Assembly: GCA_944377365.1 (NCBI GenBank)
Contig: CALWEQ010000001.1
Coordinates: 1-64,000, forward strand
Length of the DNA stretch: 64,000 bases
Reading direction: 5' to 3'
DNA from: an uncultured Clostridia bacterium
GTDB lineage: Bacteria; Bacillota; Clostridia; Christensenellales; UBA1242
This document shows positions 1 to 20,600 of the stretch, piece after piece (the stretch's first letter is position 1; each line of letters begins with the position of its first letter). Made by a program: the position numbers and the translations under genes. The notes under the pieces are model-generated. The model was given only the letters and a program-made list of their open reading frames with translations. It ran no database searches and had not been told where the DNA came from.

Positions 1-102
1 TATAGAAATTGATTCTCCTTCATTCAATGAAAAAGATAGGTTATCAAAAAGTTGCCCATAACCAAAATTTTTAGAAATTTTATCTACGTTTAATATAAGC
101 AT
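1..102 (-). CDS. ABC-type ATPase, N-terminal fragment (cut by window edge)
   Basis: Only the first 34 residues are inside the window. They read as the first beta strands of an ABC nucleotide-binding domain: 'ILNVDKISKNFG', then 'LFDNLSFSLNEGE', stopping just before the expected Walker A. An AAGGAG ribosome binding site lies about 7 nt before the ATG at 102. The 'LFDNLSF..NEGE' wording resembles ABC-F translation factors (YfmR/YdiF type), but an exporter ATPase is equally possible from so little sequence. It is divergent from the aminoglycoside phosphotransferase gene and may belong to the same protective unit. Confidence 0.7.
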   Translation of the reverse strand, partial: MLILNVDKISKNFGYGQLFDNLSFSLNEGESISI

Positions 103-176
103 TTATAAACTCCTTAACTCTCAAAAAGTATACCATTTTTTTTTCTATTTTGTCAATAAGCCGTATAGTTATAATG

Positions 177-205
177 TTGACAATTTTACTGAAATATTTT
201 ATAAT
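177..205 (+). promoter_or_regulatory. Consensus promoter for the phosphotransferase gene
   Basis: TTGACA at 177-182, a 17-nt spacer and TATAAT at 200-205 form a perfect sigma-A type promoter. The start codon of the gene it serves is at 234, preceded by GGAG. Confidence 0.85.
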
Positions 206-233
206 AAATTAAAATGATGAAATGGAGAAAAAA

Positions 234-1004
234 ATGAAAAAAATACCAACTTTTATTAAAAATTTTATAAAAAATACGACAATTCAAGAAATAAGTATAG
301 GTTGTTCAAATACAGCAGTTTATAAAATAATAAAAGACAACGAAACTTTCTTTTTGAAAATAGGGAAGATACCTTCATTAACAAAAGAATATGCAGCGCT
401 AATATGGTTGAATGGGAAATTGTCGGTTCCTAAATGTGTTTATTTTTGTAATGACGGGACAAACGAATATTTACTTACAACTACAATGGCTGGCGAAATG
501 AGTTGCTCAGACTCCAACTTAAAAAAACCAGAACAAACTATCAAACTGCTAGCACATGCAATTAAGCAATTGCAAAGTGTAGAGATTTTAGAGTGTCCTT
601 TTAGAAGTGATTTAAATTACAAATTAGGTTTAGTGGAATACAATGTTAAAAATAAATTACTAACTGATTCTCCATCCAGTAAAATTGGGAGAGAATTAAA
701 ATCATACAACAATATTTTTAAATACCTAATTGACAAGAAGCCAACAACTGAGCAATTGGTATTTTCTCATGGGGATACAAGTCTGCCAAACATATTCTTT
801 AAAGATAATCAAGTAAGTGGGTTCATAGATGTTGGTGAATGCGGAGTGGCTGATAAGTGGTTTGATATTGCAATATGTTATAAGTCTATCATAAGAAATT
901 TCCCAAATAGAGAGGATCTACTTAAATTGTTTTTAAATGAGTTGCAAGAGGAATATTCTGATAAAATAGAATACTATATTACTTTAATGGATTTATACAC
1001 ATAG
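234..1004 (+). CDS. Aminoglycoside O-phosphotransferase, APH(3') type
   Basis: This 256-residue kinase is expected to transfer phosphate from ATP to a hydroxyl of an aminoglycoside-like sugar. The sequence shows the ATP-anchoring lysine in 'FFLKIG' (about residue 42), the catalytic loop 'LVFSHGDTSLPNIF' with Asp181 and Asn186, and the metal-binding 'GFIDVGECGVADKWFDIA' with Asp199. The same segments are strongly alike in APH(3')-IIIa (about 264 residues), and the length fits. The ATG at 234 is preferred over an in-frame ATG at 222 because GGAG lies between them. It has its own consensus promoter and sits at the edge of a putative biosynthetic island, which suggests self-protection, although an acquired or intrinsic resistance gene is an alternative. 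The true substrate is unknown. Confidence 0.88.
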   Translation: MKKIPTFIKNFIKNTTIQEISIGCSNTAVYKIIKDNETFFLKIGKIPSLTKEYAALIWLNGKLSVPKCVYFCNDGTNEYLLTTTMAGEMSCSDSNLKKPEQTIKLLAHAIKQLQSVEILECPFRSDLNYKLGLVEYNVKNKLLTDSPSSKIGRELKSYNNIFKYLIDKKPTTEQLVFSHGDTSLPNIFFKDNQVSGFIDVGECGVADKWFDIAICYKSIIRNFPNREDLLKLFLNELQEEYSDKIEYYITLMDLYT

Positions 1005-1021
1005 AAATATTTTCATAAAAT

Positions 1022-1903
1022 TTATCTTTCAAACATATTATTGTCTTCTAAATAATCGACTAGAGAACACGAAGATTTTAATAGATTATTGTTTATGCCT
1101 GTGCCAATAGTTTTATTATTCTTGTCAGGTCTATGATAATCGGAACCTACAGAAATTAACAATTGATTCTCATTTGCTAATTTTAAATTTTCGGCCATTT
1201 CAGATTGAGAAGCATCCGCATGATAGACCTCGACCCCTTTCAACCCTTTTGCTTTTAATTTTTTTATCAAAAAATCCTTTTCTTTAAAGTCTAATTTTAT
1301 TTCTTGTGGATGAGCGAGGACGGCTACACCACCACAATATTGAATAAGTTGAAGTGCCTTAAATATATCTATTTCATAATTTTTATAATTAGGAACAAAT
1401 GGTTTAACTTTATCGATAAAATTTTTTACGAATTCATAATCATAGTCATTTTTTACAAGCACGCGTTTCATTTCAGTTGCTATACTCAAATAATTCTCAA
1501 ATTTCACCTCATCAAATATACAATTTGGGACATTTATACCAATTTGCAAAATATTATTTAACATTTCTATATTTGCTTTAAATCTTTTGTTTTTGTACGT
1601 TTGCATTAGTTCTACGAGTTTAGAATTATATATATCTATACCATATCCTAAAAGATGCACCTTTCTTGCCTTACAATCACTAGGGCATATATAATAAGTA
1701 GATAATTCCACCGCACTAACAATATTTAGGTTATATTTTTTCGCTAAAGGTTTTAATATTTCAAAATTACGAACATCGTCGTGATCAGAAATAGCAAATG
1801 TTTTGACGTTATTCGACTTTGCCATCTGTACCAATTCTGATATAGACATATAGCCGTCACTAAATATAGAATGAACATGTAGGTCAATATACTCTTTTCC
1901 CAT
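1022..1903 (-). CDS. PHP-domain phosphoesterase
   Basis: The 293-residue protein has the PHP metal-binding signature: 'DLHVHSIFSDG' at the N-terminus, 'AISDHDD' near residue 40, a conserved Glu in 'SAVELS', 'LAHPQE' in the middle and 'VGSDYHRPD' near the C-terminus. PHP proteins of this size hydrolyse phosphate monoesters such as histidinol phosphate or 3',5'-bisphosphonucleotides. The ATG at 1903 is chosen because it has an AGAGGG site and the conserved start of the domain; the longer frame has no support. It is convergent with the phosphotransferase gene and divergent from the GNAT gene. In this island it could dephosphorylate a sugar or nucleotide intermediate, but that is inference. Confidence 0.82.
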   Translation of the reverse strand: MGKEYIDLHVHSIFSDGYMSISELVQMAKSNNVKTFAISDHDDVRNFEILKPLAKKYNLNIVSAVELSTYYICPSDCKARKVHLLGYGIDIYNSKLVELMQTYKNKRFKANIEMLNNILQIGINVPNCIFDEVKFENYLSIATEMKRVLVKNDYDYEFVKNFIDKVKPFVPNYKNYEIDIFKALQLIQYCGGVAVLAHPQEIKLDFKEKDFLIKKLKAKGLKGVEVYHADASQSEMAENLKLANENQLLISVGSDYHRPDKNNKTIGTGINNNLLKSSCSLVDYLEDNNMFER

Positions 1904-1919
1904 AAACCCTCTTTTAATT

Positions 1920-1948
1920 ATATTATAATAAATTTGCAAATTTGTCAA
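1920..1948 (-). promoter_or_regulatory. Promoter of the PHP gene
   Basis: On the minus strand, TTGACA (1943-1948) is followed by a 17-nt spacer and TAATAT (1920-1925). The gene's ATG at 1903 has its own ribosome binding site. Confidence 0.65.
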
Positions 1949-1956
1949 TAATATAG

Positions 1957-1985
1957 TTGCATTTTATAATAAAATGTTTTATAAT
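1957..1985 (+). promoter_or_regulatory. Promoter of the GNAT gene
   Basis: TTGCAT (1957-1962), a 17-nt spacer and TATAAT (1980-1985) lie 25 nt before the ATG. A 14-bp unit, TTTTATAATAAAAT, is directly repeated across this promoter (1963-1976 and 1977-1990), which could also be an operator. Confidence 0.7.
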
Positions 1986-2010
1986 AAAATTAGTTTATAG
2001 GAGAACGTAG

Positions 2011-2481
2011 ATGAATGTAAAAATTAATTTTTTGTCACAACATTTAAATGATATTGATTATGATGAACTTTGTTTGCAACTTTATTATCTTACAGACCAT
2101 TTAACTTCTGATTATCCTCATCATAAAGAGTGGTTTTTTAAAAAACATTTGCCGTTTATTGGTAAAGACAGGGAAATAATTTACTTAACATTTCATAGGA
2201 ATATTTGCGGGGTGGCATTCTTAAAAAAAACTGCTCTAGAAAAAAAGATTTGTACCTTTTACGTCACCGAGCATAGCAGAAATCATGGTGTAGGGCATCT
2301 ATTATTAGAGGAGTGTTTTAAATATTTAGAAACTACAAAACCTCTAATTTCTATGCCTAAATACAAGGTAAGATATTTTCTTTATTATGTTTATAAATAT
2401 GATTGGAAGATAACACAGATATTGCAAGAATTTTATAATAAGGATAACGACGAAGTGGTATTTAATGGAGAATTAAGTTGA
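2011..2481 (+). CDS. GNAT-family N-acetyltransferase
   Basis: The 156-residue protein has the length of a single GNAT domain. The acetyl-CoA pyrophosphate-binding motif A is visible as 'RNHGVGHLLLEECFKYL' (about residues 90-106), after a beta-strand segment 'KICTFYVTEH'. An AGGAG site lies before the ATG. Its 3' end overlaps the convergent DegT-type gene by 9 bp. It could acetylate an amine made by the aminotransferases of this island. The substrate cannot be read from the sequence. Confidence 0.72.
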   Translation: MNVKINFLSQHLNDIDYDELCLQLYYLTDHLTSDYPHHKEWFFKKHLPFIGKDREIIYLTFHRNICGVAFLKKTALEKKICTFYVTEHSRNHGVGHLLLEECFKYLETTKPLISMPKYKVRYFLYYVYKYDWKITQILQEFYNKDNDEVVFNGELS

Positions 2482-3447
2482 ATTGTCGTTTAAAACTTTG
2501 TTAAAAAAATCACATATTTTTTTGATATTATCTTCGTTAATCCAATCGCACGTTCTAAAGTAATGATAGGATTTTTTTAGTTTTTCATATATTTTAAAAT
2601 TTTCCAAATGTAAATCTTGATATACATTTGGAATTTTTTTCTGCAGTGCAGGTTCCCTAAAGGCTTCAATAAAAATTGTAGATTGATAATTATCAAGTTT
2701 ATTTTTATCCATAAATTGATACATTTTTTTACTTATATCATTATAATTTTGTGGTTGATAAAAAAGGATTCGATGGAATATGTTATCAATGAAATTATCA
2801 TTATCCTTTATATTGTTTGTATTTAATAATTGTTTGTATAATTTTACTTTTTGTAATTTATTATCAATTATTGTTTTGATGTCTGTAAATTTATCATAAA
2901 GAAGTGAATACTTATCATTTTCAACAATATTTGGATAGTATTTAATATCCATTTTATTTGATGCTATAAACCCATATTTTTCAACATCAATCGGTTTTCC
3001 CTTTCCAAAAGAGTAAATAATAATATCTCCTTGTGGAACTTTAACATATATATTTCTAGCATTTATATATTGTGCCGAATCTTCGATTAATATAATGCTT
3101 CGTTCCTTACAAAATTTTACCAGTTCAGATATATTTTTATAGATTCCATACGCATGAATATATATAATGGTACTTATATCATTTCGAAAATTATCTTGTA
3201 CCATTTTTAAATCTAAACAAAAGTCAGTATCAACATCAACAAAATAAGGATAACAACCATAATCTAAGACTGCATCAACTACGCTTTTGCAAATAGTTAC
3301 AGGCATAACCACTAATGTCTCTTTTTTTACATTTGCATTAATTAGACAATATTTAATGGCTTCAGAACCACTATTTGTAAGTTTGCCACAATTAAAACCT
3401 AATGTTTTATTTATTTTATTTTCAAGATTATTTTTCAAAATATGCAT
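2473..3447 (-). CDS. DegT/DnrJ/EryC1-type PLP aminotransferase, short form
   Basis: This 324-residue protein resembles sugar aminotransferases: an N-terminal 'TNSGSEAIKYCL' cofactor-phosphate segment, 'IIYIHAYGIYKNI' and 'ILIEDSAQ' with the Asp that contacts the pyridine nitrogen, and 'SFGKGKPIDVEKYG', where the Schiff-base lysine is expected. It is shorter than typical members (about 370-400) and less conserved around the lysine, so it may be a divergent or non-catalytic homologue. The ATG at 3447 has a GAGG site 7 nt upstream. It is the last gene of the operon and overlaps the preceding stop by 20 bp. Confidence 0.7.
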   Translation of the reverse strand: MHILKNNLENKINKTLGFNCGKLTNSGSEAIKYCLINANVKKETLVVMPVTICKSVVDAVLDYGCYPYFVDVDTDFCLDLKMVQDNFRNDISTIIYIHAYGIYKNISELVKFCKERSIILIEDSAQYINARNIYVKVPQGDIIIYSFGKGKPIDVEKYGFIASNKMDIKYYPNIVENDKYSLLYDKFTDIKTIIDNKLQKVKLYKQLLNTNNIKDNDNFIDNIFHRILFYQPQNYNDISKKMYQFMDKNKLDNYQSTIFIEAFREPALQKKIPNVYQDLHLENFKIYEKLKKSYHYFRTCDWINEDNIKKICDFFNKVLNDNST

Positions 3448-4402
3448 ACATAGTCCTCGCAATATCATCATTTCCATTTATGTCGTAATGAAGATTATAA
3501 AATCTGTCTTGATATGCTCCAAATGATATGTTCCAATTTTCTACGCTTTCGTAAACAGAGCCTTCAAAATCAATAAATTCTACATTTTTGTATTTAGATA
3601 GATATTTAAAAATATTATCATATAAAAACGCAATAGCACCTAGGTCATAGTTTTTATCAAAATATGAATACATAATATATGCTATTTTGTTTCTCCATAG
3701 CATTCCAACTGAACCAATAACGATATCATCTTTCAAGGCGACAAAGCACATACCATTGTCGTTTGCGATTGAGTGTGTTAAGATATCTTTAACTTCTTCA
3801 GCAGAAGAGTCAAAACCATATTTGCTTTCCCATTCGACGTATTTTTTTATGTCAGTAAATGTTATGTTGTTATCAATTACAAATTTTACATCATGTTTTA
3901 TTGCTTTACGAATCTCTTTTCTTCTATCATGCCCATAGCCGTCATATAAATTCTCGCTATTTGTAATATCTAATTTATAAGTATATCTTACCTCTGGCAT
4001 AAAACCATTTCTAATATAAGGCATTATATCAATTATTTTAGGGTCAATTGAAAAAGATATTGAAACAAAATTTTCTTTTAAGATTTTAATAAGAGAATTG
4101 TTAATATCTCTTAAAAACCTTATTTTGTTCCTTTCAGTAGTGGGAGGTTCGCTTATTACAGGTCCGCCATATGGGATATACATTGTACTTTGATTTATTT
4201 CATCGTTACTAGATTTAGAACAAAATAATGGCATAAATGCCACAATTTCATTATTTTGTCGCGTAACAATAAATTTGTCAACATTTTTTAATTTTGTAAA
4301 CCATTTAGTTGCAAAAACTGTGCCATTAAAGCTAGCATCTATGAATTTGTCTATATCTAAAATAGAATTAAGTCTATTTCGTGTTATAATCTCACTAATC
4401 AA
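3428..4402 (-). CDS. FemAB/GNAT-like acyl- or aminoacyltransferase
   Basis: The 324-residue protein matches the layout of the double-GNAT FemAB/'Acetyltransf_6' group. The middle has 'GHDRRKEIRKAIKHDVKF' (the basic helix typical of the group), followed by 'CFVALKDDIVIGSVG' and the family-typical end 'FIDFEGSVYESVENWNISFG'. FemAB proteins attach amino acids from aminoacyl-tRNA to amines; related ones use acyl-CoA. The TTG start overlaps the stop of the previous gene (TTGA), which implies translational coupling, and a GGGGG site lies 6 nt upstream. It is the sixth gene of the operon. Whether it uses tRNA or CoA donors is not visible. Confidence 0.65.
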   Translation of the reverse strand: MISEIITRNRLNSILDIDKFIDASFNGTVFATKWFTKLKNVDKFIVTRQNNEIVAFMPLFCSKSSNDEINQSTMYIPYGGPVISEPPTTERNKIRFLRDINNSLIKILKENFVSISFSIDPKIIDIMPYIRNGFMPEVRYTYKLDITNSENLYDGYGHDRRKEIRKAIKHDVKFVIDNNITFTDIKKYVEWESKYGFDSSAEEVKDILTHSIANDNGMCFVALKDDIVIGSVGMLWRNKIAYIMYSYFDKNYDLGAIAFLYDNIFKYLSKYKNVEFIDFEGSVYESVENWNISFGAYQDRFYNLHYDINGNDDIARTMYAYFEK

Positions 4403-5244
4403 TTTTGCCCCCTAATTTCGAAGTGATAACGTCTGATATCTGAATTTTTTAGCATGTCATAAAACTGACTACGCCTTCCCCAAAAATCTAAGTTTAATAT
4501 ATTATTTTGTTTATTTAAAATATAATTTATATGGTTAAACAATACCTTAATACCTGCATTTACAACTCGACCACTATCAGATGCACCCCATTTTGCAGCA
4601 TACCAAGCATCATCATTTGCTTTAAACCATAAAGAATATGCTAGAGGTTCATTATCTTTAAATGCGACCATAAGCGAGGAGTTATTTGGTTCGCTCATTA
4701 AATAGAATATGTATTGCAAATCTTCTCTATCAAGCGATTTCATATCACATAAATTTTTCCCCTTCCACGATTTTTTGTCTATTGTTAAGACACTTGTCCA
4801 TAAATCTAATGCTTTACCACTAAATATTTGATATTCTATTTCTATATCACTAAGATATTTTACATAATCCCTTTTTAATAAAGTACATTTCTTTTTAATA
4901 TAATTAGAAAAATCCTCTGCTAAAATAAGTTTAGGTGCATCCCATTCGTCATTTATAAAGAGATTTAAGTTGTTTTTGTTACACCAATTTTTCAATAATA
5001 TTAATTGCTCTTCAGTTAAATCAATATACTTAAAAATGACATTTTTGCCGTTGATCACTGAACTCTTTATCAACTTTAAAAGATTCTCTGTGAAATCGAT
5101 TTTAAAGTATTGCAAACATAAAATTTCTGTATCTTTAATTACAAAGTCAACATTATCAAGATTAACAACATTTTTTACATCGTACCTAATTCTATTAGAA
5201 TCTTTCCAAATTTTGCTAGAAGTAAAATTATTGTCTTTCAACAC
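4399..5244 (-). CDS. GNAT/FemAB-like acyltransferase, second copy
   Basis: The 281-residue protein has a C-terminal half built like a GNAT fold: 'SSLMVAFKDNEPLAYSLWF', then 'AAKWGASDSGRVVNAGIKVL' and 'LNLDFWGRRSQFYDML'. This is the same general plan as its downstream neighbour, with low apparent identity. The GTG at 5244 is chosen because GGAGG lies exactly 6 nt upstream; a TTG three bases later is possible. It overlaps the aminotransferase upstream by 17 bp and the FemAB-like gene downstream by 4 bp. It probably acylates a substrate amine in the same pathway. Family assignment is moderate, and the N-terminal half is unrecognised. Confidence 0.55.
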   Translation of the reverse strand: MLKDNNFTSSKIWKDSNRIRYDVKNVVNLDNVDFVIKDTEILCLQYFKIDFTENLLKLIKSSVINGKNVIFKYIDLTEEQLILLKNWCNKNNLNLFINDEWDAPKLILAEDFSNYIKKKCTLLKRDYVKYLSDIEIEYQIFSGKALDLWTSVLTIDKKSWKGKNLCDMKSLDREDLQYIFYLMSEPNNSSLMVAFKDNEPLAYSLWFKANDDAWYAAKWGASDSGRVVNAGIKVLFNHINYILNKQNNILNLDFWGRRSQFYDMLKNSDIRRYHFEIRGQN

Positions 5245-6427
5245 GAAAATCCTCCATTTTAGAGATAATATATTTAACATGTTTACATTTTAATTGCGAT
5301 GATAAATTAAACCAAGCTGTTTGGTTAATTAGTTCAATTGCTCTCGGACAATCACTTTCAGAATATTGAACATCTGTAAGATTAAACGGATAGTTTGATT
5401 TATGAGGTCCTTGTTTCTTTTTAAATACGTCATAACTATTTATTAATTTAGTGCAGTATTTGTTAAATGGTATACCATTTTCATGCATGAATTTAATAAA
5501 ATCATTGCATTCTACATCTGTTTTAAATTTTAAACATATACTGACATTGATATTTTTATTTGTTGATAAATTTGGTCGCATCGTATAAAAATTAATATTT
5601 TTGAAATAGTTTTCAAAATACTCAAATAATTTATTTTGGCGATTTATAATCTTTGAAATTTTTGAAAGTTGAGCCACCGCGACTGCACTTTGTAACTCTG
5701 TCATCTTATAATTTTCACCATATGAAGTCCCACCATTTGTCCAAGTAGGATAATCACAACCAATTCTATGTCCACCATTATCATGAAAATCTTTAGCCTT
5801 TTGATATGCTTCATAATCATTTGTTGCAATAAACCCACCTTCACCACAAGTAATTGTCTTACCTGCTTGTAGACTAAAAGCACCAATATTGCCAATAATT
5901 CCACTTTTTTTATTATCGTATTCACTTCCAAATGCTTGTGCTGTATCTTCGATTATGATTAAATTATGTTTTTTTGCTATGTTGAGTATTGGATTCATAT
6001 CACAACATTGGCCTTGCATATGTATACACATTATGGCTTTTGTCTTCTTTGTAATTGCTTCTTCAATTTTTTTAGGGTCTATATTCATTGTTTCATCAAT
6101 ATCAACAAATTTAGGTATAGCACCACATGCTAAGACACTTGAAGCCGAAGCAATAAATGTGAAAGGACTCATAATCACCTCGTCACCATTTCCTATTCCA
6201 TACGCAATACATGAAAGTTTTAATGCAGACGCTCCATTTGTACAAGCCAAAACATATTTAACATTTAAATATTTTTTCAGCATATTTTCTAATTTGTCTG
6301 TCATAAATAACAGTTTTGGGCCATGATAGCGAAAGAGTGATTTAGAATTTAGTACTTTCAGTACATTTATTTTCTCTTTAAATCCTATATAATTTGTCCC
6401 AATAAATGGGTTATTTGGTATTTTCAT
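5228..6427 (-). CDS. DegT/DnrJ/EryC1/StrS-family sugar aminotransferase
   Basis: This 399-residue PLP enzyme has the full family signature: 'LACTNGASALKLS' (cofactor phosphate), 'DEVIMSPFTFIASASS', 'IIIEDTAQAFGS' (Asp to the pyridine ring), and 'FSLQAGKTITCGEGG', where the lysine forms the Schiff base. Members aminate keto-sugars or keto-cyclitols using glutamine or glutamate. The 'LFRYHGP' segment and GEGG loop are typical of enzymes acting on sugar-like ketones in antibiotic and surface-glycan pathways. An AAAGGAG site supports the ATG at 6427. It overlaps both neighbours in the operon. The amino acceptor is unknown. Confidence 0.9.
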   Translation of the reverse strand: MKIPNNPFIGTNYIGFKEKINVLKVLNSKSLFRYHGPKLLFMTDKLENMLKKYLNVKYVLACTNGASALKLSCIAYGIGNGDEVIMSPFTFIASASSVLACGAIPKFVDIDETMNIDPKKIEEAITKKTKAIMCIHMQGQCCDMNPILNIAKKHNLIIIEDTAQAFGSEYDNKKSGIIGNIGAFSLQAGKTITCGEGGFIATNDYEAYQKAKDFHDNGGHRIGCDYPTWTNGGTSYGENYKMTELQSAVAVAQLSKISKIINRQNKLFEYFENYFKNINFYTMRPNLSTNKNINVSICLKFKTDVECNDFIKFMHENGIPFNKYCTKLINSYDVFKKKQGPHKSNYPFNLTDVQYSESDCPRAIELINQTAWFNLSSQLKCKHVKYIISKMEDFRVERQ

Positions 6428-7562
6428 TATTGACTCCTTTTAAAATATAATTAGCAATGATCTCAGGTGCATCACTAGAAAAATTAGAAATGTAAGAATT
6501 TCTTTTAGAAAAGAAGTTTGTCTGTTTGTTTGAATCTATAAAGTGGATTACTTTATTATATAACGTTTTTGAGTTGTCTTTAAGGTATTTTGCTACATTT
6601 TCAACAACCATGTTAACTCCAGCCTCTTCATCTAAAAATTCTGGTATTTTTTTGTAAAAATCAAATGCATCCCAATTTAGAATTTCAAAGCCCAAATCAA
6701 GATTTTTGTATTCTTCAAGTTGTAACAACTGGCTATAATTTACTGGAGGAATATACATAATTGATTTTCCTATTCCAACTGTTTCTATAAAGTTGCCTAA
6801 CCCTGACGACATTATAATATGCGAACATTTATGTAATTTGTCCAAATATTCTTTATAAGGAAGGGTTTTTATTTCTACATTTTCATATAAAGAGCAATTT
6901 TCCATTATTGCATTTATAATTCCACTTCCACCGCAGACAAAAATTTTATCAAATTTATTTAGAACAACTGTATTTAATATTTCACTTAAAATTTTTTTAT
7001 AAAAACGCTTTACTATTTGTTCTTCTAGCATAAAAGATTCAGCACCACCAAAATTAATCATGAGCATATTTTCAGAACCATAATGAGTCTTATCTATATC
7101 TCGCAAAGGCCCTACGAAAATTGGATTTTTTATATTTTGCCCAATCTTCTTAAAATTTTCTTTACTACTAAAAGTTTCAGATATAAAATAACCATCCACA
7201 ATCTCAAGTCCTGGAGTTATTTTGTCCCACATCCAAACAAGGTTGTCTATAAAATAGACATTTTTTGCATTTAATTGTTTTGCATATATTGCACCAAATT
7301 GGTTTTCAGAACTTACAATCGCACAAGCATGAATAAATAATTCCTTAAAATTACTCAAATCATGATAATTGTATGTTTTGCATTCGATAACTTCGTCAAA
7401 TAGTTTTGATGATATTGCTTGTTCTTTAGCAATACTTGTTCCTAAAAATATTAATTTAGTTTTTTTGTCTAATTTTTGTTTAAGAACTTTAACAACGTTT
7501 AAACATGTAATAATAGGTCCATAGCCAAACTTTTCCGCGGTAACTAAAATATATTTTCCCAT
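6411..7562 (-). CDS. GT-B fold glycosyltransferase (MurG/GT28-like)
   Basis: The 383-residue protein begins 'MGKYILVTAEKFGYGPI', a Gly-rich N-terminal loop as in GT-B enzymes. It has a C-terminal nucleotide-sugar site: 'MLMINFGGAESF', 'IFVCGGSG', then 'SHIIMSSGLGNFIETVGIG' and 'PVNYSQLLQ', which parallel the donor-binding region of MurG and macrolide glycosyltransferases. The ATG at 7562 lies 4 nt after the radical SAM stop; the longer frame would overlap it. It has no membrane segment, so it acts in the cytosol, perhaps attaching the aminated sugar made by the adjacent aminotransferase. Confidence 0.75.
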   Translation of the reverse strand: MGKYILVTAEKFGYGPIITCLNVVKVLKQKLDKKTKLIFLGTSIAKEQAISSKLFDEVIECKTYNYHDLSNFKELFIHACAIVSSENQFGAIYAKQLNAKNVYFIDNLVWMWDKITPGLEIVDGYFISETFSSKENFKKIGQNIKNPIFVGPLRDIDKTHYGSENMLMINFGGAESFMLEEQIVKRFYKKILSEILNTVVLNKFDKIFVCGGSGIINAIMENCSLYENVEIKTLPYKEYLDKLHKCSHIIMSSGLGNFIETVGIGKSIMYIPPVNYSQLLQLEEYKNLDLGFEILNWDAFDFYKKIPEFLDEEAGVNMVVENVAKYLKDNSKTLYNKVIHFIDSNKQTNFFSKRNSYISNFSSDAPEIIANYILKGVNNENTK

Positions 7563-7566
7563 CTCT

Positions 7567-8580
7567 TTACACCCCTTTAAGAAAAGTTCTATTAAAAATG
7601 CAGTTTGCTTCATCACATTTTGTTTTACAACTCATATCTCCGTGGTTTAGTTTTTCAATTAAATTAAGTCTTATTTTCCCTTCCCAAATATCTTTAAAAG
7701 ATAGGTTATGCAGAGAACCCAAACAATACAAATTTCTATCGCAATGTATAGAACAGTCACAAGGATAGACTTTTCCTGTTGGACAGTCTATAAAGGCGCT
7801 GAAATTTGCAAAAAAACAACGAAGGTTTTCATTTTGCTTTCTTTCACCATTTATGTTGATTTCTTCTTTAAAAATATCTAGGGTATTGCATAGCAGTTTA
7901 ACATTGTATTTATTAAGCAATGATTCGAATTTTTGTTTTTTTGCATTAAAGTTTGATATTTGTTCTTTTGTAGGTGTAAGATTTTCGCAATCTTTAATTA
8001 CAATGGGATTTAAAAAATCAAAGTTTACTTTTTCTTTTAATGCGATAAAATTTTCAAATGAATCTATATTTTTACTATTTAAAACATGGTTAATGTTTAT
8101 TTTTACTTCAGGTTTTATTTTTTTTAATTTGTTTATTCCTTCAATTGCATGTTCAAACAGATTATTTGTTCTTCTCAAATTATTATGAATTTCTGGATAA
8201 CAACTATCTAAAGAAACAAACACCGCTTTGATATTAATATTTATAAATTTATCTACATATTGATTTAACAAATATCCATTTGTAATAAAAATAATATTTA
8301 TGTCTTTATTTGAAGCGTATTCCATATAATTAATGATGTTTTTATCTGTAAATGGTTCTCCACCTCCAGTGAAATGTATATATTTTGTACCCATTAAAGA
8401 TAACTCATCGATTAATTTATATACATCAATTGAACATAAGAGATTTTTATTGCTTCGCACATCACAAAAAACGCAATTTGCATTGCAGATGTTTGTTAAA
8501 GATAAAAATACGAAAAAAGGTTTATTAAAATATTTCTCTTTAACATTACTTATATTTTCATTCAATAAACTAAGATACAT
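7567..8580 (-). CDS. Radical SAM protein with SPASM-like C-terminus
   Basis: The 337-residue protein has the radical SAM cluster motif CX3CX2C ('CNANCVFC', Cys32, Cys36, Cys39), the SAM-binding 'TGGGEPF' at about 71, and a Cys-rich C-terminus ('CPTGKVYPCDC', 'HCDRNLYC', 'CKTKCDEANC') as in SPASM proteins with auxiliary Fe-S clusters. SPASM enzymes modify peptides or oxidise sugar or cyclitol alcohols, as BtrN (a SPASM/twitch enzyme) does in butirosin synthesis. No small precursor-peptide gene is visible next to it, which favours a small-molecule substrate. AAGGAG lies before the ATG at 8580. It is an oxygen-sensitive enzyme, consistent with an anaerobe. Confidence 0.88.
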   Translation of the reverse strand: MYLSLLNENISNVKEKYFNKPFFVFLSLTNICNANCVFCDVRSNKNLLCSIDVYKLIDELSLMGTKYIHFTGGGEPFTDKNIINYMEYASNKDINIIFITNGYLLNQYVDKFININIKAVFVSLDSCYPEIHNNLRRTNNLFEHAIEGINKLKKIKPEVKININHVLNSKNIDSFENFIALKEKVNFDFLNPIVIKDCENLTPTKEQISNFNAKKQKFESLLNKYNVKLLCNTLDIFKEEININGERKQNENLRCFFANFSAFIDCPTGKVYPCDCSIHCDRNLYCLGSLHNLSFKDIWEGKIRLNLIEKLNHGDMSCKTKCDEANCIFNRTFLKGV

Positions 8581-9035
8581 TATTTTACTCCTTCATCTAG
8601 GATAACTTGTTCTATATCTTTGAGCAAATCCTCTGATGGGAATACTTTTGAATAATGATATGTGACATTTGTTAAACTATTTAGTCCATAAACGACAGGG
8701 GAATATTTTCTATCTTCCTCTAAAAATATATGCATTTTTTTCTTATTTGCAGAAGCCCAACCCATTTCAACATGAACTCCACCAGAAATTGGATTGCCTG
8801 GTACAACAATCATTATATCAGAATTTATAACTCCAGCATAATCATTTGGTACACACTCATCTGGGCCCTTATATTCGGCTCCCCAATTTTCTCGTTCATG
8901 AGCCAAAAAGTATTGATGTCCATTTTGTTTTGCTATTTTTTTTAGACCTTCAAAGAAGTATCTATATTTTTCATCAACCTGTCCATTTTTATTATTACAC
9001 AATTGTGCAAATGGAAATGCATAAAATATATACAT
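8580..9035 (-). CDS. Nucleoside 2-deoxyribosyltransferase-like protein
   Basis: The 151-residue protein has the deoxyribosyltransferase fold pattern: 'MYIFYAFPFAQ' at the start, 'NSDIMIVVPGNPISGGV' and the catalytic-Glu region 'HVEMGWASANKKK'. Family members exchange or hydrolyse bases of (deoxy)nucleosides or nucleotides; some, such as the CMP hydrolase MilB, release sugar phosphates in antibiotic pathways. Its stop overlaps the radical SAM start by 1 bp, and it begins 2 nt after the MazG-like gene, so it is within the operon. A role in releasing a ribose-derived sugar is only a hypothesis. Confidence 0.7.
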   Translation of the reverse strand: MYIFYAFPFAQLCNNKNGQVDEKYRYFFEGLKKIAKQNGHQYFLAHERENWGAEYKGPDECVPNDYAGVINSDIMIVVPGNPISGGVHVEMGWASANKKKMHIFLEEDRKYSPVVYGLNSLTNVTYHYSKVFPSEDLLKDIEQVILDEGVK

Positions 9036-9037
9036 AA

Positions 9038-9337
9038 TTATTCTCCTTTCAATTTATTTATTCTATTTTGAGTTCTTATTAATTTTTCTAATCTTATTTG
9101 TGAAATTTTTTCTTCTCCAAAAAAGATTTCCATTTGTTCTAGCATATTATGAACATCAGCAAGTTCTTCAAGTAAATTGTTTTTAATTTCTTCGTCAGCC
9201 TTTTCATAACCAAAACGTTTGTATTTACACAACGCCTTGATTAGTTCTCCCATTTCCTCAATCAACATAGTGCTTTGCGGTTCATAACCCCAAAAATCTA
9301 ATGCTTCTTTTGATATTTTTTTAATTTTATTGTCCAT
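9038..9337 (-). CDS. MazG-like nucleotide pyrophosphohydrolase
   Basis: This 99-residue all-alpha protein carries the MazG-type metal site: 'IEEMGELIKAL' (EExxE-like) followed about 27 residues later by 'LLEELADV' (ExxD). Such enzymes cleave NTPs to NMP and pyrophosphate. The ATG at 9337 has a strong GGAGGTAAC site; the longer frame is not supported. It is the first gene of the eight-gene operon, 25 nt after its -10 box. Together with the next gene it could feed nucleotides into the pathway or clean up modified nucleotides. Confidence 0.75.
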   Translation of the reverse strand: MDNKIKKISKEALDFWGYEPQSTMLIEEMGELIKALCKYKRFGYEKADEEIKNNLLEELADVHNMLEQMEIFFGEEKISQIRLEKLIRTQNRINKLKGE

Positions 9338-9356
9338 GTTACCTCCATCTATCAAT

Positions 9357-9385
9357 AATTTAGCATATATTTTATAATAAGTCAA
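9357..9385 (-). promoter_or_regulatory. Promoter of the eight-gene island operon
   Basis: On the minus strand, TTGACT (9380-9385), a 17-nt spacer and TAAATT (9357-9362) precede the MazG-like gene. It lies back to back with the aminotransferase promoter in a 112-bp divergent region, a good place for a LysR-type regulator to bind. Confidence 0.65.
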
Positions 9386-9413
9386 CTAATTATAAAAATT
9401 TTTTATAATATAT

Positions 9414-9443
9414 TTGACTTAAAAACCGATTTTGTTATATAAT
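9414..9443 (+). promoter_or_regulatory. Promoter giving a leaderless aminotransferase mRNA
   Basis: TTGACT (9414-9419), an 18-nt spacer and TATAAT (9438-9443) are followed by only 6 nt before the ATG at 9450. No Shine-Dalgarno sequence is present, so transcription is predicted to start at the A of the ATG. Confidence 0.7.
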
Positions 9444-9449
9444 TTAAAC

Positions 9450-10928
9450 ATGAATAAAGCAGTAAATAGACTTATCGAAAAAGATTTATCATTGTTAGAT
9501 AAAAGTATGATTCCTAATATAGGGAAAAGGGCTGATGGCTCTTCCTTTTTGTCTAATGTGGCAAAAATAGAAAAATCGGCATATGTATATAGAAATGAAA
9601 TTTACTCATACTTAAATAAGGATGAACACGAGTTTTTCAATTTAGGGGGCGGCGATCCAATAAATTATAAACCTTTTCCTTTAGCATATAAAAGTCTAAA
9701 ACAAGAGTTTTTTAAATCTTCAATTTATTCCTATCCACTATCTCAAGGAGAATCTTTATACAAAGAAAACATTTGCAATTATCTAAATGATATAGGCATT
9801 AGAAATGGTTTAGAAAAAGTAAACAATGATAATATCATTTTTACGCAATCAACAACACATGCATTTTACTTAATATTAAAATCAATTCTTCGCCCCTATG
9901 ATGTTGTTTTATTTACAGCTCCAACTTATGGACTATTTACATATATACCAGAAAGGCTAGGTGGAATAAGCGAGTTCGTTCCACTTAAAGAAAGTGATAA
10001 TTGGTTAATAAATCCACAAATTTTAAAATCTAAAATTTTAGAAATCAATGCACGGCTAAAAATTGAGTATTGCACCTTAGGTTATCAGCCTAAAGTAGTG
10101 GCTTTCGTAAATATAAATCCACATAATCCATTAGGTACAATTTTAACACGAGATAATTATGATTTAATTTCATCTATGGGAAAAGTTTGCAAGGATTTAG
10201 GAGTATTCCTAATAGATGATTTAGTATATTATGACTTAAACTATAATAGAGAGAAACCACCCTGCCCAGTCTCTTCTATTCCAGAAATGTTTGATAACAC
10301 TATATCTTTATTTGGATTATCTAAATCTTTTGGTTTGGCTGGAGCTCGGGCAGGTTTTATAGTTGCGAATGAAATTGTAATTAGGGCAGTAAGAAATTTA
10401 ATATTTCACCAAATGGACTCAGTACCAACAATACAGGCAAGAATGTTATCTGAAATATTTTCAACAAAAAAGAAAAGACGTGTGTGTTATCAAAAGTATT
10501 TTAAGAAATTAATAGAAAGGTACAAGTTTAAACTTGATATACTAAAATGTTTTGTAAATGGTATAGATTCAACAAATAAAAAGAATAGGAAAAGAATAAT
10601 AAGTTTATTAAAAAAACATAAGATAGATCTAAATAGTATAAATAACCATCATGTGCGTTTAGTCTTAGAGCCACAAGGAGGATTTTTTGCACTGCTTGAT
10701 CTAACATATTATAAAAACAAACAATATGTAGATATAACTATTACAAGTGCAGAAGATTTGCTTGTTTTTTCTTTTAAGCAAGCACGCATAAAGTTTTTAA
10801 CAGGTGCGTCATTTGCTTGGCCAAATGATGATTTAATTGTGAGAATTACATATACGGCAAAAGATGACAAATTTGTTGAAATGTTATACAAATTTTTTTT
10901 AAATTTAAATAAATTAAGTGTTGGTTAA
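9450..10928 (+). CDS. Class I/II PLP-dependent aminotransferase
   Basis: This 492-residue fold-type I aminotransferase has 'INPHNPLGTILTRDNYD' (substrate and PLP contacts), 'VFLIDDLVYYDLNY' (Asp and Tyr to the cofactor ring) and 'LFGLSKSFGLAGARAGF' with the Schiff-base lysine. It is longer than the usual 390-430 residues because of insertions in the C-terminal half, including a Lys/Arg-rich stretch near 370-390. It is divergent from the island operon and convergent with the LysR gene, whose 3' end it overlaps by 15 bp. The mRNA is predicted to be leaderless. It probably supplies an amino or keto acid to the pathway. Confidence 0.85.
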   Translation: MNKAVNRLIEKDLSLLDKSMIPNIGKRADGSSFLSNVAKIEKSAYVYRNEIYSYLNKDEHEFFNLGGGDPINYKPFPLAYKSLKQEFFKSSIYSYPLSQGESLYKENICNYLNDIGIRNGLEKVNNDNIIFTQSTTHAFYLILKSILRPYDVVLFTAPTYGLFTYIPERLGGISEFVPLKESDNWLINPQILKSKILEINARLKIEYCTLGYQPKVVAFVNINPHNPLGTILTRDNYDLISSMGKVCKDLGVFLIDDLVYYDLNYNREKPPCPVSSIPEMFDNTISLFGLSKSFGLAGARAGFIVANEIVIRAVRNLIFHQMDSVPTIQARMLSEIFSTKKKRRVCYQKYFKKLIERYKFKLDILKCFVNGIDSTNKKNRKRIISLLKKHKIDLNSINNHHVRLVLEPQGGFFALLDLTYYKNKQYVDITITSAEDLLVFSFKQARIKFLTGASFAWPNDDLIVRITYTAKDDKFVEMLYKFFLNLNKLSVG

Positions 10929-11765
10929 AATATTTATTAGATTTCTTGTCTCTTTTGAGATAAATTTATCATTATAAATTACATTAATGGGAGTTGAAGG
11001 CAGTTCAAAATCTACTTTTATTACATGAAATTTGTCATTGTTAAATGTACTATAAACCAATTCTTTTGGAATATAAAAAATAGCATCTAAATTATTCATA
11101 AGAGACATGCAAATATGGTTAGAATTGAATTCGTATACAGGATTTATACCAATATTATTTTTTAAAAGTATAGTATCTAAATCTTTTCTAGACTTTGTTG
11201 TTTTAATAGGTAAAGCAAATTTATAATTTTTAATTGAATTATTATCAAATTTTATATTTTTTGGGGAAACAAAAGCCATATGAAGATCCATAATCTTTTT
11301 ACAATTTAGTACACCATAATAATACCCAGCAATAATAGCAAATTCAATTTCTTTATTTTCAACCTTTTTGACTAGGTTATCTAATGAGTCATCTATTAAT
11401 TTGTATTCTGCAAAATTTTGTTCAGAGATATACTTTTTAAATGCGGGTAATAGGTTTATTAAATAAGATTGTATGCCTAAATCCATGTGAATCTGCTTAT
11501 TTTCATAAGATACACTCAATCTTTTTTCGGCTAGTTGCAGTGTGTTAAAACAATCTTCAACATATTCAAATAAATCTGTACCTATTTTTGTTAATTCGAT
11601 TTTTTTGCCACGTCTGATAAAAAGTTGTGCATTAATTGTTTTTTCAAGTTCTGAAATAGTATAACTAATAGCGGGCTGAGAAACCTCAAGTTTTTTTGCG
11701 GCTAAAGAGAAATTTCCTAATTTGACAACATAGTAAAAAACTTTGTAATAATTTAAATCAATCAT
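10914..11765 (-). CDS. LysR-family transcriptional regulator
   Basis: The 283-residue protein has an N-terminal winged helix-turn-helix ('FSLAAKKLEVSQPAISYTIS', about residues 18-37, then 'LFIRRGKKIELT') and a C-terminal periplasmic-binding-like effector domain of two lobes. LysR proteins usually respond to a pathway metabolite and act on nearby divergent promoters. A GGAGG site supports the ATG at 11765. The likely target is the aminotransferase/MazG divergent promoter region at 9338-9449, or its own promoter. It is the last gene before the tRNA-derived boundary of the island. Confidence 0.92.
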   Translation of the reverse strand: MIDLNYYKVFYYVVKLGNFSLAAKKLEVSQPAISYTISELEKTINAQLFIRRGKKIELTKIGTDLFEYVEDCFNTLQLAEKRLSVSYENKQIHMDLGIQSYLINLLPAFKKYISEQNFAEYKLIDDSLDNLVKKVENKEIEFAIIAGYYYGVLNCKKIMDLHMAFVSPKNIKFDNNSIKNYKFALPIKTTKSRKDLDTILLKNNIGINPVYEFNSNHICMSLMNNLDAIFYIPKELVYSTFNNDKFHVIKVDFELPSTPINVIYNDKFISKETRNLINILTNT

Positions 11766-11964
11766 ATAAGTAAACCTCCATAACTATTATTATATTTTAA
11801 ATGAATATGAAAAAAAAATCAAGGAATTGACAAGTTTTAAATTACAATTTTGTAACATAACTGTCTGCGAATTTTTGCACAATTTTTGCAAAGATTATGA
11901 AAAAGGTGCCGTTTTGTGATGTGTTTTTAGGTTTTGTTTTCGTTTGATGTTGTATGTTAAAAAT

Positions 11965-12214: not shown

Positions 12215-13396
12215 ATGTTTTTTTGTAACAATTTTAATAATAAATGCCCACAAAACAAAATTATAGTTAAGACAATTCCAGGATTAAGTATACAAGGCCC
12301 TACCGGCGCCACAGGCCCTACAGGGGCGACAGGCCCCATTGGTAGAACAGGAACAACAGGGCCAATAGGACCAACTGGTGCGACAGGACCGACAGGCGCT
12401 GACGGAACAACTGGTGCTACAGGTCCTACAGGGGCTACCGGACCAATAGGCGCTACAGGTCCTATGGGTCCAATAGGCCCAACAGGAATATCTGGCAATA
12501 CAGGTTCTACAGGTGCGACCGGCCCTACCGGCCCTGCAGGAATAACTGGAGCAACTGGGGAAATAGGACCAACGGGAGCAACGGGCCCCACGGGAGCAGA
12601 CGGAATAACAGGTGCAACAGGTGCTACAGGCGCGACGGGAGCAACAGGTCCTACGGGCCCGACTGGTGCTACGGGACCAACAGGCACTCTTGGAGTAAAC
12701 AACTCTTTTCTCTTTGTGAAAAGTGGCAACGTTGGAGGAGATGGAACGCAAGCAAATCCACTGCCATCGATTTCTGACGCAATCAATTTAGTTGATGAAG
12801 ATGGGATCATAGTTGTAGAGGAAGGAGATTATCAAATCTCTTCTACTTTAAACTTAAATAAGAATGGAATTTCACTCATAGGCAAACCAAACTCAGTAAT
12901 AAACCTTCAATCCGATGTTGTTGGTATGCTTGTTGGTGGCGACAACAATGAAATTTATGGCCTAACTTTTACAAGTGACATTCCCTACCCTAGCGAATTT
13001 ATTCAAATTGGTGGAAACAACAATATAATAAGAAACAACGTTATTTTTGGCCCAACACAGGCAGGAAGTTCAGACACCTGGATAACAAACAGAGGCGTCG
13101 TAACTCAAGGCTCGACACAAAACAACTGGATTGATGGAAACATATTTTACTCTTTACGCCAAGCAGGTTATTTAAATCCAAATTCCGCGGGATTTATAAC
13201 TCATAACGTTGTTTACAACACTCGTGGCTGGGTGGTTGACCAAGCGCTTATGCAGTTTTCGGGAAACTCTTGGGGTAGCCCTGCTAATACTGTGGACATA
13301 GCACTTTTAGCAGGAACGACAACATCTGCACCTTATGATTCTGTTGCAGACTTGCAAAGAAACAACAGTATGGCAACAATTAGTGACCAAAGATAA
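12215..13396 (+). CDS. Collagen-like repeat protein with beta-helix C-terminus
   Basis: The 393-residue protein has a 27-residue head, 44 uninterrupted Gly-X-Y triplets rich in GPT and GAT (residues 28-159), and a C-terminal domain with Asn-rich short strands ('[12 protein letters not shown]', '[13 protein letters not shown]', '[10 protein letters not shown]') typical of a right-handed parallel beta-helix. No signal peptide or membrane segment is seen. Bacterial GPT-rich collagen proteins such as BclA coat spores, so a spore- or cell-surface role is plausible. TAGGAGG lies 5 nt before the ATG. The collagen part is markedly GC-richer than its surroundings. It is followed after 7 nt by the amidase gene. 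Confidence 0.85.
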
Positions 13397-17688: not shown

Positions 17689-20600
17689 TTAAACTAAAAT
17701 CACTCTAAACCAACCAAGCCTGTAATCATTTCCGTGAACATTTCGTTCAAATGTCCTGTCTGGCCCACCAGAAGCCTTGACATAGATGTTTACCAAAATA
17801 TATTGTTGATTGTTTACGGTGTAATCAGGCCCTGTGTAAAGATATGTTCCGTCAAAGTATGCTGTTGAAACGTCACCCTCACCTGCTGTAACTTCGAAGT
17901 AAATCGAACTTGTGAGCAGTATCGAGCTGAATTTTTCCCCGCTTTCAATATTAACCGTATGCCCATTTATTGATATAAGATTTCCATTGCTATCAGTCTT
18001 GAATTCATAAGTGGTTGTTTCACCTCCATATGTCATATCAAAAGAGCCTACTCCGTTTTCAAAGCTAATATTAGTAAATGTAGCATTCGTCCCTGCTGTA
18101 AAAGTGCAAGTTGCAGGAGTCTCTCCTTCAGCTGGAACGTATCTGTATGTTATGTTAAATACACTATTAAACAGTCCAATTAATCCTATTTCTGAATCAT
18201 TCCCTATCTGACCATTATTTTGTGTTGCTTGATAAATTGTTACGCCATTCGCCCATGCGCTTATAGGTATTTTGAAGTTAGCGGTTGTTGGGGTTCCGTT
18301 TGCAGACTGAATATAATTTTTCCACACTTTATTTGTTTCATCATAATACTGAATGCCTGATTCACTTGCGTCTGCATCAATTTGTCTTATCGTTGTGTCG
18401 CCGAGTCCTGTGTCAAGTGAATAATATTCTCTTGTCAACCAGTACACTTGATTATAGCGGTAATATAAATTATTCACGCCAACAATATATGATTTATTCA
18501 CCGTAGCATAGTTGTTTGTAAATCTTCCAGAGTCTTCAATGTATAGGGTGTCGTTTTCAATATGTTGCCAACTACTACTGATTGTATAACCACCGTTTAA
18601 GCAGTTTTCTTTTATATCATTGCCACCATATCTCACACGGAAATCTACACTATCTAATATATCTTCGGAAGCAGTAACATTTATTGTTACCGTGTCAGTG
18701 TTAGGTTGCAAAGTCATACCCAAAATTTCTGACAAGCTGTTATAGGTCGTTTCAGGTCTATATTGGTAAGTGTTGTTTATTGTTTTCGAACCTTCAAATT
18801 CTTCAGATCCACGCGTCATCTCAACGGTCACTGTTGCTTGACCGCCTGCTGGAAGAGTAACTTCTAATGTGTCGTCATAATAAGTTACACCTGAGTTTAC
18901 ATCGTTGCCGTTATTTTTAACTTTTATATAGTCGCTTAAATTAAAGCGTTGTGCGTCGATAACAACATTTTTTGAGGTGCTGACGTTGTATTGCCTGCTA
19001 ACAGTTGCAGGGAAACTTATGTCACATGTTTCAATATCACCGTCTTTTTGATATTTCAACGTTACATGCACTTCAACTTGAACGCTACTGTTTGTTCCAT
19101 AGTACCAACCTGGCAAATTAGGAACAGTAAATCGCCCTTCGCCGCTAGCTTGTATTCCCTCATATGAAATTTGGACATCTCCTTCTTCCTTATCTGTTAG
19201 TTCCCATGGGTTCTTCAATTCACTGCTTGTAATTAATTTATTATTGTTTATATTTAAGCCTCGAACAGCATTTTCATCAAGATATTTAAATCCAACACTT
19301 TCAATCGTAACGTATTGATAAATCATGTTGGCTGTACTAGCCATGTAATTATCATAAATATCTTGTCCGCTATTGATGTTGTCGCTGTTAACATTGTTCG
19401 CCTCTGCATTTACGCCCCATGTTGCAATATTGTCAACGACGATCATTTTCACTGATCCGCTATTGTCTTCTGGTGGATTGTCTCTCTGCATGGTCAAGTC
19501 ATATTTATCGTCTTTTTCGTTCTCTGGTGTACCCATATCATTCTTATTAGCAACAATCTTATCATAAATTACGCCAACGTCAAATTTTTCACCTTCGGTA
19601 AATGTTGCATCAGAAAAAGCTGTGCTAATCACAGGATTTTGAGACGATGGAGATGAAAGAGTGAAGTAAAACTCTATTTCAAATCCCCAAGAGTTGGTTA
19701 TTTCAAGCATGTACAACTTCTGCCCAAATGCGATTGAATCAGGTTTTAATGTTAGTTCATTGTTTTCTCCATCATTATTTTTCCAACTGTAAATGTTTCC
19801 AGCAAGGGCTTTGTCAGTATCTAGATCAACATCATCAATTTCCGAGTCACTCTCACTTATTTTTTTCTGCCACGGAGAATCGATGTTTAATTTTGCAATG
19901 TTGCTTGCGTCATTATAGCCATTTCCTGACCCTCGCACTGTCAACGTATAAGTCAAGCTTTTTGCAATATTACTGCTGTCCCAATTTGATCTTACAAAGG
20001 ATATGATTGAATTGCTGTTTGTTGCGATGTTGAAAACACTTTTATCGTCCGGAACAAAATTGTAAGGGTTGTCTTCATTTGATGCCACTCCATCAGTTAC
20101 AACTCCCGCAGTAGCAACTTGCATTCCACCGATTGTTACGTTGTAGTCAGGTATAAGTTTAACGACAAAATAGAATTCTTTCCTAGTGTCCGAAACTTCG
20201 TAAGTCAACTCCAAGAGAACGTAGGTGCCATTATTGTCAGTTCCTTCGCCAAATAGATAATAATCGTAAACTTTGTCATTGTCTTTTATCGGTGTAAAAC
20301 TTAAATAGTCATCACGTGACGTCGTTTGATATTTAAATTCATTAGATGAAATGTTGCTTGGCAAACCACCAATTGTTTTCCAATCCCAACTTTCATCCAA
20401 AGTGTTAACTACTTGTAAGCTTATTTCTGCCTCCCCAATGTTTTCGGCAGACAACATCTCGCCGGTAGATGGGTGACGTATGCCCATTTCGTTTACAAGA
20501 GTGTAATGGTTGATTTTGTTTGTTTCAATTTCGATTATTGTTTGATTGCTTCCCGACCAAGCATGTTGCGCTTCAATATCAAGTGCTTTTTTGAGTCTGT

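Follow-up and report, generated by a model that had tools for sequence, protein, structure and literature searches.

A probable peptidyl cytosine-nucleoside gene cluster at a contig end in an uncultured Clostridia bacterium

We analyzed a 64,000-nucleotide stretch of DNA from an uncultured Clostridia bacterium (GCA_944377365.1, contig CALWEQ010000001.1, positions 1 to 64,000; hereafter the window), which begins at base 1 of contig C1 in an assembly of 852,316 bases in 10 contigs that is rated 100% complete. We conclude with good confidence that the genes at the left end of the window form a biosynthetic cluster, acquired by horizontal transfer, whose product is a peptidyl cytosine-nucleoside antibiotic akin to blasticidin S and mildiomycin. 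This product would most likely be a ribosome inhibitor built as an aminoacylated amino-pyranosyl cytosine; the ribosomal target is suggested by the presence of an ABC-F gene and by the known relatives blasticidin, gougerotin, amicetin and mildiomycin, which act at the peptidyl transferase centre (PMC7689648).

Enzymes of a cytosine-nucleoside pathway

A first-pass annotation of this DNA had described eight overlapping or abutting minus-strand genes at 2473-9337, flanked by a divergent aminotransferase and a LysR regulator, and had matched the set to no pathway. All eight open reading frames (ORFs) were present without an internal stop, each overlapping its neighbor or lying a few bases from it, and both flanking genes were found (9432-10928 and 10914-11765). 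Shine-Dalgarno-like sequences were clear ahead of the first five of the eight ORFs; matches to -35/-10 elements were no more frequent than in shuffled sequence, and a single promoter for the eight genes is plausible. The operon is listed below from its upstream end (L numbers denote related loci, and clade A is the branch of these loci to which the window belongs).

9038..9337, minus strand: MazG-like NTP pyrophosphatase (PF03819 E 0.035, weak; kept in clusters L016, L109, L112 and L114)
8580..9035, minus strand: cytidine monophosphate (CMP) N-glycosidase of the BlsM/MilB/BcmB family (nucleoside 2-deoxyribosyltransferase family; PDB matches given below)
7567..8580, minus strand: radical SAM/SPASM enzyme related to BlsE/MilG (PF04055 1.7e-19)
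6411..7562, minus strand: GT-B glycosyltransferase (GT) related to the cytosylglucuronic acid (CGA) synthase BlsD/MilC (TIGR04467 5.2e-8)
5228..6427, minus strand: DegT1 aminotransferase, pyridoxal phosphate (PLP) Lys190 (PF01041 1.7e-88; 59-78% identity among clade A loci)
4399..5280, minus strand: Fem1, aminoacyl-tRNA-dependent aminoacyltransferase by predicted fold (GTG at 5244 is the likelier start)
3428..4402, minus strand: Fem2, putative GNAT/FemX-like aminoacyltransferase (weak Acetyltransf_6/GNAT matches; 46-71% identity among clade A loci)
2473..3477, minus strand: DegT2, short DegT-family PLP protein (PF01041 1.2e-19; alternative start ATG at 3447)

The family calls of the first-pass annotation largely held, weakly so for MazG; the protein at 3428-4402 gave only a faint GNAT signal, and the GT and both acyltransferases showed little or no Pfam signal. 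Its statement that the combination fits no known pathway goes too far: a CMP hydrolase, a GT resembling CGA synthase, a radical SAM enzyme resembling BlsE and a DegT protein make up a core of the blasticidin/mildiomycin type. Searching with the proteins of the blasticidin (bls) cluster by tblastn, we found homologues of BlsM, BlsE and BlsH in the window and in nearly all related loci, while BlsD gave a direct match in the window, in five further clade A loci and throughout two sister clades, B and C. The annotated blasticidin-type clusters used for comparison were located through the glycosidase on plasmids (L038 being a plasmid of Kitasatospora sp. NBC_00039); no viral contigs carrying the glycosidase and no plasmids carrying the GT were found.

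The protein at 8580-9035 had its best PDB matches in three solved CMP N-glycosidases, 4jen (4e-23), BlsM (5vto, 7.5e-21) and MilB (4jem, 7.6e-20), of which 4jen is annotated as a CMP N-glycosidase and is the BcmB structure. The residues of MilB reported to bind substrate or act in catalysis are Phe22, Glu62, Asp78, Ser97, Gly99 and Glu103, and its Arg23 recognises the hydroxymethyl group (PMC4081090). All six have kept equivalents in the window glycosidase, and the position of Arg23 is occupied by Ala in the window and L016 and by Thr in the other loci compared. By the rule of the same study, plain CMP is therefore predicted as the substrate, as for BlsM.

Structure models, a check proposed in the first-pass annotation, agreed with its GT-B call and refined its FemAB-like one. 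The AlphaFold2 model of the GT (pLDDT 82.8) has a GT-B fold with UDP-sugar transferases nearest. The GT family profile aligned by hhalign with two annotated CGA synthases (probability 81.6, E 1.1e-5, 267 columns) and gave no match to BlsF, which served as control; a relationship of the GT to BlsF was dropped for this reason. The radical SAM enzyme matched BlsE by tblastn (1.4e-21) and has the motifs CNAxCxxC, GGEP and a C-terminal CxCxxH in common with it; a tree, small and with long branches, grouped it with BlsE and the sister-clade enzymes at 100/100, apart from a second radical SAM enzyme of some clusters. Identity of the window GT and radical SAM enzyme to their bls counterparts is about 20-23%. 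DegT1, with its PLP lysine conserved, is 26% identical to the BlsH of L039 (E 4e-41), with other DegT enzymes equally close, and the PLP lysine of DegT2 is kept in every homologue compared.

For Fem1, the AlphaFold2 model (pLDDT 87.7) predicted the double-GNAT fold of FemX and MprF, with Foldseek matches ranging from 1.9e-9 to 8e-7 that included MprF (1.9e-9), FemX (2.7e-9) and Sbb17/Sba18, aminoacyl-tRNA-dependent peptide synthases of the streptothricin type. The predicted fold is what Fem1 has in common with FemX-fold transferases such as PacB, Orf11 of BD-12, Sbb17/Sba18 and MprF; no sequence-level match to them was found. Aminoacyl-tRNA is the substrate of FemX-like enzymes in the biosynthesis of pacidamycin, dehydrophos, valanimycin and BD-12 (PMC12945691), and MilH was proposed as a tRNA-dependent aminoacyltransferase for mildiomycin (PMC11784345). 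Where the first-pass annotation spoke of amine acylation, the modeled fold suggests that Fem1 is likely an aminoacyl-tRNA-dependent former of peptide bonds and not a generic acylase. No homology between Fem1 and Fem2 was found by hhalign, and the Fem2 profile had no match in the PDB.

Extent, gene order and spread of the cluster

The first-pass annotation had the eight genes right and missed those at 1-2481 (ABC-F start, APH, PHP and GNAT genes), which belong to the gene unit together with the aminotransferase and LysR genes.

1..102, minus strand: ABC-F (ribosomal-protection), first 34 codons, remainder beyond the contig end (91% identity over 34 amino acids to the L016 ABC-F, E 2.5e-13)
222..1004, plus strand: APH(3')-family sugar O-phosphotransferase (NF033068 215.6 bits against a cut-off of 205; PDB APH(3') 8.5e-40; kept in the cluster family)
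1022..1903, minus strand: PHP-domain phosphoesterase (Pfam PHP 2e-11; kept in clusters)
2011..2481, plus strand: GNAT acetyltransferase (weak GNAT matches; homologues in clusters L016, L107, L111 and L115)
9432..10928, plus strand: AT1, fold-type-I aminotransferase (PF00155 2.2e-26; homologues in clusters L108, 35%, and L109, 39.5%)
10914..11765, minus strand: LysR-type regulator (PF00126 6.8e-17; most clusters have a LysR gene in this position)

Because the start of the ABC-F gene sits at window 1-102, the contig edge cuts the unit short; the remainder of this gene was not found elsewhere in the assembly. The ABC-F homologues of L016 (455.8 bits) and L019 (449.8 bits) pass the NF000355 cut-off of 380 bits. 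The APH protein is probably a self-resistance enzyme, and the GNAT protein may possibly act in resistance or tailoring. The PHP protein has matches to nucleoside bisphosphate phosphatase/RNase RNM-like families that stay below cut-off. AT1 was ruled out as a housekeeping gene of the genus, having no homologue in 36 congeners, and we take it as a pathway gene because clusters L108 and L109 contain homologues of it. Another close homologue (41%) is located away from any such cluster (L116:8720-10201, in the genome of L022).

The gene-order search suggested in the first-pass annotation found the same order in other species, a recurrence that places the operon far beyond chance. A single scan with the GT picked up ten loci, which lie in genomes of uncultured Bacilli and Clostridia; by their record names, several come from rumen, rabbit or goat. 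When the taxonomic order of one related locus was searched, 18/385 species genomes were positive (ten or eleven close homologues and seven distant ones); in the window's own order the GT occurred in this genome alone, with none among the 36 congeners. G+C content is 27.4% over positions 1-11900 and 34.9% in the remaining window. This low G+C, the patchy spread and the occurrence in different orders together indicate horizontal transfer. It is possible that the 12 kb at the contig end reflect a chimeric contig, against which L016 carries the same cluster independently. L016 is the nearest locus (59-78% identity) and has the window's arrangement, including GNAT, PHP, APH and ABC-F, without AT1. 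The order in most of clade A is LysR-PHP-nucleoside deoxyribosyltransferase-radical SAM-GT-DegT1-Fem1-Fem2-(methyltransferase)-(second radical SAM)-DegT2-ABC-F-APH; no cluster with sequence as far as that end is without ABC-F, and nearly all have APH.

The sister clades comprise six loci, L110, L111, L113 and L115 in clade B and L112 and L114 in clade C, and share PHP, DegT2, DegT1, Fem2, GT and the deoxyribosyltransferase-family glycosidase, together with, in loci whose sequence extends far enough, the radical SAM enzyme, APH and ABC-F. Against CGA synthase, their GTs reach E values of 8e-59 and 5.7e-49 (167-200 bits), and BlsE is the clear top match of their radical SAM enzymes (4.8e-47, 2e-49). 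These strong matches tie the family to the CGA pathway, with clade A as a diverged branch. Clade B clusters (L111, L115) also encode a UDP-glucose 6-dehydrogenase, and the GT of clade C carries a fused Fem1-like domain (E 2e-5).

Some clusters contain further genes. A second, very different radical SAM enzyme is encoded in three clade A clusters (L019:14839-15726, L106:13438-14319, L107:12916-13809), in two of the three between the methyltransferase and DegT2 genes. Clade C encodes a protein of about 360 amino acids (L112:10034-11116, L114:10459-11550) with PHFGT and KLSKS motifs resembling a class I aminoacyl-tRNA synthetase core; it had no Pfam, NCBIfam or PDB sequence match, and may supply the Fem enzymes with charged tRNA or serve as a resistant copy. 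The L109 cluster opens with a fusion protein that joins a MazG-like part with a DUF1846 domain (L109:5755-7074, E 1.7e-73).

Proposed pathway and its alternatives

We infer the substrates, reaction order, product and target as follows. The MazG-like enzyme would convert CTP to CMP, from which the BlsM-like N-glycosidase would release free cytosine. The GT-B enzyme would then couple the cytosine with a hexose activated as a nucleotide sugar. Remodeling of this sugar by the BlsE-like radical SAM enzyme, through decarboxylation or dehydration/oxidation, would give a keto sugar for DegT1 to aminate. Fem1, and probably Fem2, would load the amino sugar with amino acids taken from aminoacyl-tRNA, with DegT2, AT1 and elsewhere a methyltransferase supplying or tailoring the amino-acid part. 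The PHP phosphatase may remove a phosphate at the end, APH and GNAT may modify the product inside the cell, and ABC-F would protect the ribosome. A HAM1-like pyrophosphatase, encoded in L107, L108, L111 and L115, all of which are without MazG, fits the pyrophosphatase step; many clusters have neither. The earlier suggestion of a small aminated glycoside or nucleoside-like compound was right in outline and would narrow to a cytosine-nucleoside antibiotic.

Among known systems, blasticidin S biosynthesis has a CMP N-glycosidase (BlsM) and a DegT enzyme (BlsH) like those here, along with a GT (BlsD) and a radical SAM enzyme (BlsE) that are distant homologues of the window's, and places an amino acid on an amino pyranose, which is the plan proposed here. 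The window family differs in having Fem1, Fem2, a second DegT, MazG/HAM1, PHP, APH and ABC-F, and in lacking BlsF, BlsG (the arginine aminomutase), the ATP-grasp ligase and the MFS exporter: by tblastn at E 1e-3, BlsF, BlsG, ATP-grasp, AMP-binding and MFS genes were found in 0/24 loci. Given the absence of BlsF, BlsG, ATP-grasp and AMP-binding genes, the amino-acid part would be made differently, most likely by Fem1/Fem2. The mildiomycin pathway is alike in its MilB-type hydrolase and, by description, in its DegT (MilD) and putative aminoacyltransferase MilH (PMC11784345), and its GT (MilC) and radical SAM enzyme (MilG) are of the kinds to which those of the window are related. It differs in its hydroxymethylase MilA, of whose thymidylate-synthase-like type no gene was found in any of the loci; with Ala at the Arg23 position, plain cytosine is expected here. 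Gougerotin, again by description, is a cytosine nucleoside with an aminated sugar and a peptide part, and its N-methyltransferase GouN parallels the methyltransferase of many clusters; unlike here, where a BlsE-like radical SAM enzyme is found, its carboxyl is kept as an amide by GouB (PMC12835213).

Several observations weigh against a nucleoside product of this kind. Although CGA synthase is the best NCBIfam match of the GT, it scores 32.4 bits against a cut-off of 300; the radical SAM enzyme reaches 75.5 bits against the BlsE cut-off of 400, with BlsE not its top match. The UDP-glucose dehydrogenase family (PF03721) has no match in the window genome, and a clear member occurs in only 3/11 producer genomes. 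No exporter was found, loci L018 and L103 are without a CMP glycosidase gene, the MazG match is weak, and APH is also compatible with an aminoglycoside-like product. Small alignments limit the quality of profiles and models, and gaps in metagenome-assembled genomes could hide a dehydrogenase or an exporter.

Aminoglycoside pathways also contain DegT, GT and radical SAM enzymes, and the APH(3') family member lies above its curated cut-off; an aminated sugar antibiotic of the aminoglycoside or another non-nucleoside type would, however, give no role to a CMP N-glycosidase with an intact active site or to a CGA-synthase-related GT, and no cyclitol synthase was seen among the cluster ORFs, so that we regard such a product as unlikely. 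Envelope loci commonly contain DegT, GT and FemAB-like enzymes as well, which speaks for the surface-glycan decoration that the first-pass annotation offered as one outcome. We dropped a capsule locus, and consider glycan decoration very improbable, as the ORFs listed for related loci included no recognisable polymerase or flippase (a profile search aimed at them was not made) and the conserved partners are CMP glycosidase, APH and ribosome-protection ABC-F; neither a fixed capsule or lipoglycan locus holding these genes nor related strains with several of them broken were found. Least probable of all is a pathway to the thiamine antimetabolite bacimethrin, for which 4jen as the best PDB match of the glycosidase would speak. 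It was dropped because the thymidylate-synthase-like partner is absent from all loci and the Arg/Lys residue for hydroxymethyl-CMP is replaced by Ala/Thr.

Within the peptidyl cytosine-nucleoside reading, the sugar donor is left as two alternatives because all 17 clade A GTs compared have Thr in place of Lys18, a residue without variation in seven other GTs, and because the window genome has no dehydrogenase; confidence in either alternative does not detract from the nucleoside reading. Under the canonical CGA route, the donor is UDP-glucuronic acid, its source having been missed in the assembly, the radical SAM enzyme is of the true BlsE type and the product is a close blasticidin/gougerotin analogue. 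The dehydrogenase genes of clade B, the UDP-glucose dehydrogenase of three other producers and a cluster that runs off the contig at base 1, so that genes may be missing, all favor this route, while the Thr at position 18, the dehydrogenase missing from the window genome and the absence of one beside the ABC-F gene of the close relative L016 keep our confidence in it somewhat short of even. We give equal weight to a donor switch in clade A, for instance to UDP-N-acetylglucosamine or another hexose nucleotide, in which the radical SAM enzyme would be a dehydrogenase/dehydratase making the ketone for DegT1 and the product a new cytosine amino-sugar nucleoside. It is in line with the missing dehydrogenase, with clade A clusters having no separate sugar dehydrogenase, and with the clade A-specific changes K18T, S106N, Q127S, K128E, T255G and T256N at GT positions that elsewhere vary little or not at all. 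However, GalU was not found in the window genome, and of GlmU only the C-terminal half was recognised as a separate ORF (G000:C6:1717-2313, L077) and the N-terminal pyrophosphorylase was not, leaving the alternative donor unproven. Just as tentatively, clade A could be a new branch of ribosome-targeting nucleoside antibiotics, with a GT that has moved off UDP-glucuronate, a BlsE-like radical SAM enzyme with a new reaction (sugar oxidation/dehydration feeding DegT1) and two FemX-type enzymes that draw on aminoacyl-tRNA for the peptide part; its producers would be gut bacteria with tiny genomes, and gene transfer would carry the pathway between orders.

Soil actinomycetes are the main known source of blasticidin-type nucleosides, which inhibit bacterial and eukaryotic ribosomes. 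As judged from sequence, a gut-type genome of 0.85 Mb appears to hold a complete-looking blasticidin-like gene set plus its own ribosome-protection genes. The cluster family was apparently undescribed in small-genome animal-gut bacteria: searches of open-licence papers found no description of CGA/blasticidin-type nucleoside antibiotic clusters from gut or rumen. If the reading is true, translation inhibitors are made inside animal guts by bacteria with small genomes, among them relatives sampled from rumen, rabbit and goat. A gut producer cluster that includes an APH(3')-family kinase and a ribosome-protection ABC-F gene would offer a possible native context for these resistance-gene families, and the GT with its possible donor switch, the diverged BlsE-like radical SAM enzyme and the FemX-type aminoacyltransferases are enzymes offered for testing.

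Other features of the window

The ABC-F gene at 28420-29997 is intact and separate from that of the cluster. A G+C step lies at about 12 kb of the window, and directly to the right of the low-G+C island a protein with Gly-X-Y collagen-like repeats is encoded at 12215-13396. Further along, positions 17689-27993 form one ORF of 3434 amino acids with a single hydrophobic segment near the N terminus; it may encode a giant surface protein in this 0.85 Mb genome.

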